A DNA stretch of 64,000 bases, from contig NC_015680.1 of assembly GCF_000215995.1 (NCBI RefSeq), positions 1,439,160 to 1,503,159 on the forward strand. The letters are read 5' to 3'. This DNA is from Pyrococcus yayanosii CH1. Its GTDB lineage: Archaea; Methanobacteriota_B; Thermococci; Thermococcales; Thermococcaceae. Below the pieces are notes generated by a model. The model did no database searches and was not told the DNA's origin. It worked only from the letters and a program-made list of their open reading frames with translations. A program made the translations under genes and the position numbers. Position 1 is the stretch's first letter; each line of letters begins with the position of its first letter. Below, piece after piece: positions 32,287-42,948 of this stretch.

Positions 32287-33528
32287 TCAGAGGAGTTCTT
32301 TTATGGTTTCGGCAAGCCTCTTGATGCCCTCCTCAATCTGGGCCTCGTCGACGTAGGTGAAGTTGAGGCGCATGGTGTTCTTAACGTCCCTGTGGGCGTA
32401 GAAGGCCTCTCCGGGCACGTAGGCGACGCCTTTGGCGACGGCCCTTTCCAGCATGGCCGTGGCGTTTATATTTTCTGGGAGCGTTACCCAGACGAACATG
32501 CCACCTTCAGGCCTCGTCCACCTGACGCCCTCAGGCATGTACCTCTCTAGGGCGTCCAGCATCGCGTCCCTCCTCGGCTTGTAGAACTCGATTATCTTGG
32601 GTATGTGCCTCTCGAGGTGGCCCCCGTCGAGGTAGCGCCAGGCAACGACTTGGCCGAAGGCGTTGGTGCAGAGGTCAACGCTCTGCTTCGCTATCTCCAG
32701 CTTCCTTATGAAGTGGGGCTCTCCGGCAATCCATCCAAGCCTGAAGCCGGGAGAGAGTATCTTCGAGAACGTTCCGAGGTATAGGACCCTGCCCTCATCG
32801 TCGAGGGCCTTTACCTTGGGCACGGGCTTGCCCGAATACCTAAGCTCCCCGTAGGGGTCGTCCTCGACGATTATGAAGTCGAACTCGCTCGCGAGCTCGA
32901 TGAGGTGCTTCCTCCTCTCCTCTGCCATGGTGACGCCTGCTGGATTCTGGAAGGTCGGGACGGTGTAAACGAGCTTGACCTTTTTACCCTCGGCCTTGAG
33001 CTTCCTGAGCCTTTCCTCAAGGACGTCCGTCTTCATTCCCTCGTCATCGAGGGGTATCTGGATGTAAGTGGGTTCGTAGAAGCTGAAGGCCTGGAGGGCC
33101 GCCAGATAAGTTGGAGCCTCTACGACGACGATGTCACCCGGATCTATGAAGACCCTGCCTATGAGGTCCAGGGCTTGCTGAGAGCCGCTAGTGATCATTA
33201 TATCAACCTTCGATGTCGGGATATCGTAGCGCTTCCTGAGCCACTTAGCTATGGCGAGCCTGAGGGGAGTGAACCCCTTCGTGGTTCCATACTGGAGGGC
33301 CTTGTCAGCGTGCTCGGTTATGACTTCCTCCAGTATCTCCTTAAGTATGTCAATTGGGAACGTCTTCGGATTGGGAAGGCCGCCCGCGAGGCTTATAACG
33401 TTGCTAGTCTCGACGAGCTTGAGTAGCTCTCTAATCTCTGAGGCCTTCATTCCCAAGGCCTTCTGTGAAAAGTAACTCTCAAAATTTAGGGGGCCGCTTT
33501 CGAGCTTCTTCCTAAGGTTTTCTTCCAT
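32287..33528 (-). CDS. PLP-dependent aminotransferase (aromatic / 2-aminoadipate type)
   Basis: 413 residues from ATG 33528, after AGGTGGTTC. Fold-type I aminotransferase: SLAGGLPNPKTFP at the N-terminus, SGSQQALDLIGRVF for cofactor binding, VEDDPYGELRYSG, and the PLP lysine in YLGTFSKILSPGFRLGW. Relatives in Pyrococcus act on aromatic amino acids, kynurenine or 2-aminoadipate, so the exact substrate is open. It lies 160 bases downstream of nothing co-directional, so probably a single-gene unit. Confidence 0.92.
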   Translation of the reverse strand: MEENLRKKLESGPLNFESYFSQKALGMKASEIRELLKLVETSNVISLAGGLPNPKTFPIDILKEILEEVITEHADKALQYGTTKGFTPLRLAIAKWLRKRYDIPTSKVDIMITSGSQQALDLIGRVFIDPGDIVVVEAPTYLAALQAFSFYEPTYIQIPLDDEGMKTDVLEERLRKLKAEGKKVKLVYTVPTFQNPAGVTMAEERRKHLIELASEFDFIIVEDDPYGELRYSGKPVPKVKALDDEGRVLYLGTFSKILSPGFRLGWIAGEPHFIRKLEIAKQSVDLCTNAFGQVVAWRYLDGGHLERHIPKIIEFYKPRRDAMLDALERYMPEGVRWTRPEGGMFVWVTLPENINATAMLERAVAKGVAYVPGEAFYAHRDVKNTMRLNFTYVDEAQIEEGIKRLAETIKELL

Positions 33529-33700
33529 CTCGAACCACCTCAATGAACGTTTATGGTCGTTTGAACACCTTTATACATACGAGTTTTGGGGCGATGAAAT
33601 ATAAACCTTTCGGAGTTAAGCGTGCTTTGGTTTTTACGATTGTAAAGGCGGAGTTTGGAGAAATTTTATGAACATCAAATGCCATCTTGAGACTTTGGCG

Positions 33701-33723
33701 TAATATAAAAGGCACCAGGTGCC
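33701..33723 (+). promoter_or_regulatory. Strong TATA box followed by a 13-base palindrome
   Basis: taatataaaa (33701-33710) is one of the best TATA boxes in the window. Directly behind it lies GGCACCAGGTGCC (33711-33723), a perfect inverted repeat around a central A. A further GGCAC follows at 33729-33733 after AAAAA. The palindrome falls between TATA box and expected start site (about 33732), where a bound repressor would block polymerase. Confidence 0.6.
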
Positions 33724-33731
33724 AAAAAGGC

Positions 33732-33860
33732 ACTGCAATGATTAAAGTGATTTGCGTCAGTAGAATTTTTGGCCTCAATGGCGGGGGTAATAACCCGCCC
33801 GAGTTCATCGACTCCGCCTTCGGCGGTGCTCCCCGGGCGCCCATTGAGAGATTAATTTTT
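33732..33860 (+). ncRNA. Probable structured RNA, GC-rich, unknown class
   Basis: The only gene-free stretch of about 350 bases between the divergent neighbours holds a GC-rich block in AT-rich surroundings. Helices seen: CTCAATGG (33774-33781) with CCATTGAG (33841-33848); inside it CGCCCG (33796-33801) with CGGGCG (33834-33839); and an apical CCGCC-TTC-GGCGG hairpin (33814-33826). An alternative hairpin is GGCGGG with CCCGCC at 33780-33799. A T-run (33855-33860) could end transcription. The outer stem, unpaired pocket, inner stem and apical hairpin recall H/ACA guide RNAs, but I see no ACA box. A 70-residue ORF from ATG 33738 runs through it and on into the antisense of the next gene; its composition is not protein-like. 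Confidence 0.55.
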
Positions 33861-33877
33861 CCCTTATCTCCTTTTCG

Positions 33878-34882
<1,005 letters not shown>

Positions 34883-42703: not shown

Positions 42704-42948
42704 CACACTGTTCTGGACATTAAGTTGACATCCTTGTGATTAATGGGACTGCTTTGCAAAAATTTTTCACAGTGGGGGTTTGCCGCTATTGGGTGGAGCC
42801 CCCGAATAAGGGGGTCAAAGCCCAGGGTCAAGACGGCGGCGTCGGGGGGATTGGGGGCAAAGCCCCCGGAATGAACCCCGCCCTCCACCCGTGGGCACAT
42901 CTGGATGCGCTCCCGAGGAAAACCCCGAATGGGGGACCCCTCGGGGGC

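Follow-up and report, generated by a model that had tools for sequence, protein, structure and literature searches.

Between two minus-strand genes of Pyrococcus yayanosii CH1 (genome of 1,716,818 bp), an aminotransferase-like gene (32287-33543) and a ribose-1,5-bisphosphate-isomerase-like gene (33878-34858), both named from a reading of their sequences, lies a GC-rich island with a peak local GC content of 0.72, which raises the question of what this island encodes and from which strand it is read. All positions are those of the window, the whole stretch of 64,000 nucleotides that was analysed. A preliminary description had proposed an unassigned, regulated small RNA on the plus strand, with a TATA box, a palindromic operator, nested helices of 8, 6 and 5 bp and a terminal T-run.

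A BLAST search with 33690-33870 against 94 Thermococcaceae genomes delimited a conserved core of about 56-58 nt (33782-33838), the strong matches spanning query positions about 92-149 (33781-33838), with 88-100% identity in nearly all family genomes with a match. The matches in 91 relatives have E values between about 1e-13 and 4e-23, which puts the conservation of the island far beyond chance, and the proposal that its GC richness marks a functional structured RNA was borne out. A covariance model, R1, was built from 39 distinct sequences and comprises 57 positions; the window sequence, itself among these 39, matched it on the minus strand with 86.4 bits (E 2e-17). With R1, 92 of the 94 genomes showed one strong copy each, a divergent one included, and the two genomes without a copy are 69% and 53% complete. 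Outside the family, 21 genomes of the phylum were searched and none gave a match, no further credible copy was found by the model in the P. yayanosii genome, and an exact-pattern scan of GTDB contigs hit solely records titled Thermococcus, Thermococcaceae, Thermococcales or Thermococci. The divergent copy (G072, locus L064), in an otherwise nearly complete genome, is without the A9-G10 step of the kink-turn described below, has other deletions too and is possibly a decayed gene.

In genome G004, which we take to be P. abyssi GE5 and whose core is 97% identical to that of the window by BLAST, the model matched C1:197428-197484 on the minus strand with its first base at 197484, and under this assumption its 5' base coincides, to the base and on the same strand, with the published 5' end of a small RNA named sRk11. 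The available passages of the report on P. abyssi give a primer-extension 5' end at 197484 on strand '<-', a size of about 50 nt on Northern blots, an upstream TATA box and retention in every thermococcal genome of that comparison (Phok et al. 2011, PMC3124441). Since position 197484 agrees to the base, both the identity with sRk11 and the minus strand are fixed; judged by sequence, the GC-rich island contains a genuine gene for a small RNA, namely the counterpart of Pyrococcus sRk11 in this genome, on the minus strand. The coordinates are collected in Table 1. The label "unassigned" holds for Rfam 15, where no family matched at its gathering score, but not for the literature, although among the papers searched the name sRk11 for this RNA is used only in that of 2011; PabO1 or PabO78 of PMC4652768 could conceivably be the same RNA. 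Viral, plasmid and microRNA families gave permissive Rfam matches that seem fortuitous. Coding was also rejected, as the short ORF on the RNA strand has, by our reading of the alignment, one-base indels in its tail and non-synonymous changes among relatives. The RNA is already known, and the kink-turn proposed below is the only new point; the strand of the candidate is corrected, and the locus is linked to a published, unexplained RNA present in nearly every Thermococcaceae genome. In addition, the covariance model could serve to annotate sRk11, a family missing from Rfam 15.

Table 1. Positions in the window of the putative sRk11 gene, its elements and the motifs surrounding it.
Feature	Position	Strand	Basis or status
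sRk11 RNA gene, 57-position model	33782..33838, 5' end 33838, reads leftward	-	covariance match 86.4 bits (window sequence among the model's 39); published 5' end in relative
5' hairpin, RNA positions 1-42: lower stem, kink-turn, upper stem CCGCC/GGCGG, GAA loop	33797..33838	-	pairing; double changes in upper stem
Proposed kink-turn	33804..33832	-	letters invariant save L1; register preferred
3' mini-hairpin GGGU-UAUU-ACCC, RNA positions 43-54	33785..33796	-	95.5% of cells paired; T-run after it in other genera
BRE/TATA-like promoter region GCGAAAAGGAGATAAGG	33862..33878	-	position matches aligned BRE/TATA consensus of other genera
TATAAAA and adjoining 13-base palindrome GGCACCAGGTGCC	33704-33710; 33711-33723	+	present, unconserved, outside RNA gene
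8-bp inverted repeat CTCAATGG/CCATTGAG	33774-33781/33841-33848	+	perfect repeat

Because the strand had been wrong, the promoter, operator, outer helix and terminator first assigned to the island were wrong as well. Their letters are indeed in the plus-strand sequence, including the helices GGCGGG/CCCGCC (6 bp) and CCGCC/GGCGG (5 bp) and the T-run near 33855-33860. However, the TATA box and the palindrome are covered by no strong BLAST match of the search described above, which did not recover the outer helix either, the palindrome has a single exact occurrence in the genome, and the T-run is no terminator but part of the A-rich region upstream of the real gene, read backwards. Nor can the nested helices stand as drawn: the 8-bp and 6-bp helices have two G's in common and cannot both form in full, and the outer 8-bp helix was paired in 39% of cells among 33 sequences, near chance, so that a plus-strand RNA with this helix was rejected. 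Comparative pairing among relatives supported the 5' hairpin and the 3' mini-hairpin, both on the minus strand. Against dinucleotide shuffles, the fold of the proposed plus-strand transcript showed no clear gain in stability (z of -0.61 and -1.27), and the 57-nt RNA alone gave z of -1.1 to -2.1; folding energy, weak or ordinary on both strands, was discarded as evidence. Regulation is unsupported too, the sRk11 level in P. abyssi being about equal in all growth conditions according to the available passages (PMC3124441). The promoter-operator-terminator reading of the plus strand is not supported by these comparisons, and with the published transcript of a relative coming from the opposite strand, we see next to no likelihood in a regulated RNA on the plus strand downstream of this TATA box and its palindrome. 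As for the palindrome itself, the minus strand next to it reads TTTTATA, and it could be an operator, albeit unconserved, of the aminotransferase-like gene. The 8-bp repeat, found around the sRk11 core in this genome only among aligned relatives, might lengthen the RNA stem in P. yayanosii if transcription starts further upstream.

On the minus strand, the aligned relatives from other genera carry a strong BRE/TATA consensus, AAAgCTTTTTAgG, about 23-34 bp upstream of the 5' end and followed by CCAACT, whereas the corresponding GCGAAAAGGAGATAAGG of P. yayanosii is weak. In most of these relatives T's directly follow the 3' end, and the sRk11 gene appears to have its own promoter. A side observation concerns the same 3' end: in four genomes (G017, G028, G031 and G052; loci L108, L109, L110 and L111) a TnpB-type (IS200/IS605-like) element is inserted at the identical nucleotide there, so that the RNA body remains unbroken as far as ...UUACC. 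If the guide of the TnpB omega-RNA corresponds to the flanking DNA, its target would be the empty sRk11 site.

Could the RNA instead act in cis on a gene next to it, as a leader or 3' element such as a riboswitch-like or processing signal? It sits between co-oriented genes in the window and, in four other genomes, immediately precedes a transporter-like gene. However, no constant downstream gene was found: the upstream neighbour is the isomerase-like gene in Pyrococcus, an aminotransferase in a second genus and other genes elsewhere, while the downstream neighbour differs between genera and is often opposite in direction. The varying neighbours, the apparent promoter and the single copy make cis regulation very unlikely, and the available passages on P. 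abyssi likewise describe a short RNA with its own start (PMC3124441). From this gene context we surmise that sRk11 probably acts in trans.

In a standard simple kink-turn, two helices are separated by a bulge of 3 nt and, after it, tandem G.A and A.G pairs (PMC4316175), and the letters and pair counts of the sRk11 5' hairpin agree with this definition. G8-A9 (33831-33830) lie opposite G33-A34 (33806-33805) as the tandem, N30-A31-U32 (33809-33807) form the bulge, G10-C29 is the flanking pair and A35.G7 the 3b.3n pair. Across the 39 distinct sequences 98.8% of the cells of this model are paired, compared with 26-56% in slid registers; the letters of the tandem G-A steps, bulge bases L2 and L3 and the G10-C29 pair are invariant, and L1 is free. 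The register also pairs all three A5 variants, two of which break a simple helix, and explains the strict exchange of A12-U28 for G12-C28. Double-change cells numbered 18 against 5.4 in shuffles, and the covariation score was 0.117 against an expected 0.068 +/- 0.006. This covariation, which comes from few positions, is supportive but not overwhelming, because the 12-28 exchange may represent one or few events on the tree. The sRk11 5' hairpin thus appears to hold a standard kink-turn. The available passages of PMC3124441 give kink-turn or K-loop evidence for sRk52, sRkB and sRkC without naming sRk11 among them; the motif is a proposal of the present analysis.

By analogy, a stable archaeal RNA that carries a kink-turn may be expected to bind L7Ae, a prediction derived from PMC5539422 together with PMC4316175, and the proposed kink-turn would offer a handle on sRk11 function, since L7Ae binding can be assayed directly. 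Our best guess is that P. yayanosii sRk11 is the RNA of a putative L7Ae ribonucleoprotein. The 5' hairpin would fold into the kink-turn and be bound by the ribosomal protein L7Ae, which may stabilise sRk11 or recruit partners; the conserved 3' element GGGUUAUUACCC would be either a terminator or stability hairpin or a stretch contacting a target RNA; and the ribonucleoprotein would most likely act on other RNAs rather than control a neighbouring gene. The deep single-copy conservation, the expression and 5' end published for a relative and the conserved helices are established; the explanation as a whole, a minus-strand sRk11 ortholog with its 5' end at about 33838 that acts in trans and has a kink-turn with predicted L7Ae binding, we consider probable.

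One candidate target for the 3' tail is helix 69 of 23S rRNA (5'-GGGGGUAA-CUA-UAACCC-3'), which would make sRk11 a ribosome-associated RNA or an rRNA-folding aid held by L7Ae. Fourteen bases of the tail pair with target bases on either side of three that are skipped; loop position 49, which faces these three, is freely variable, and by our reading of the variant list most other tail changes keep a wobble pair. Nevertheless, the same fit arose in 6 of 200 column permutations and in 57 of 200 loop-only permutations, random loops reached equally good rRNA sites in 36 of 60 cases, and tail and target are both self-complementary hairpins, which favours a chance match. We treat this weak, non-significant sequence fit as a lead, and think such pairing improbable; there is an equally slim chance that sRk11, as the RNA of an L7Ae ribonucleoprotein of a kind not yet described, distinct from both C/D and H/ACA, contacts helix 69 with its conserved 3' tail. 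If true, it would be a family-specific ribosome-associated RNA.

The kink-turn also invites comparison with guide RNAs, and sRk11 might be a reduced H/ACA-like pseudouridylation guide, its kink-turn hairpin recruiting L7Ae and Cbf5 and its 3' tail pairing with the target. Candidates of such kind were proposed in P. abyssi (PMC4652768), and the best, indeed sole, same-strand small-RNA resemblance in Rfam was to the Pyrobaculum H/ACA-like sRNA 204 (RF02802, PyrR204). Its scores, 15.8 bits (E 0.33) in one relative and 14.8 bits (E 2.9) in the window, are far below the gathering score of 71, and the resemblance was absent in another relative tested. Moreover, the stem starts with the very first base of the RNA, and the bases upstream are promoter-like, leaving neither free guide arms nor a pseudouridylation pocket, and the tail GGGUUAUUACCCCC of the aligned relatives contains no ACA/ANA box 14-16 nt from the stem. 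With the pocket, the 5' guide arm and the ACA box missing, sRk11 was not filed as H/ACA; we consider a reduced guide rather unlikely.

PyrR204 nevertheless resembles sRk11 in its hairpin, its similar size and a kink-turn at the same place, the RF02802 alignment in the one relative spanning RNA positions 1-42 with the kink-turn arranged alike, while sRk11 differs by having no 5' guide arm, pocket or ANA box. With Pab19 (RF02794) it would share a kink-turn and hence, by analogy, the expected L7Ae binding; this H/ACA guide RNA itself (42798-42899) is encoded immediately upstream of the 16S rRNA gene and in the same orientation. From C/D and H/ACA guides in general sRk11 is set apart because it lacks the C/D box pair with spacer guides as well as the ACA box and the pseudouridylation pocket. 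The P. yayanosii copy differs from sRk11 of P. abyssi in that an additional 8-bp repeat flanks its core and its TATA box is weaker, and, as far as the available passages describe the latter (PMC3124441), the two are alike in sequence family, strand, 5' end and shortness, in their single locus and conservation across Thermococcales, and in their co-oriented flanking genes.
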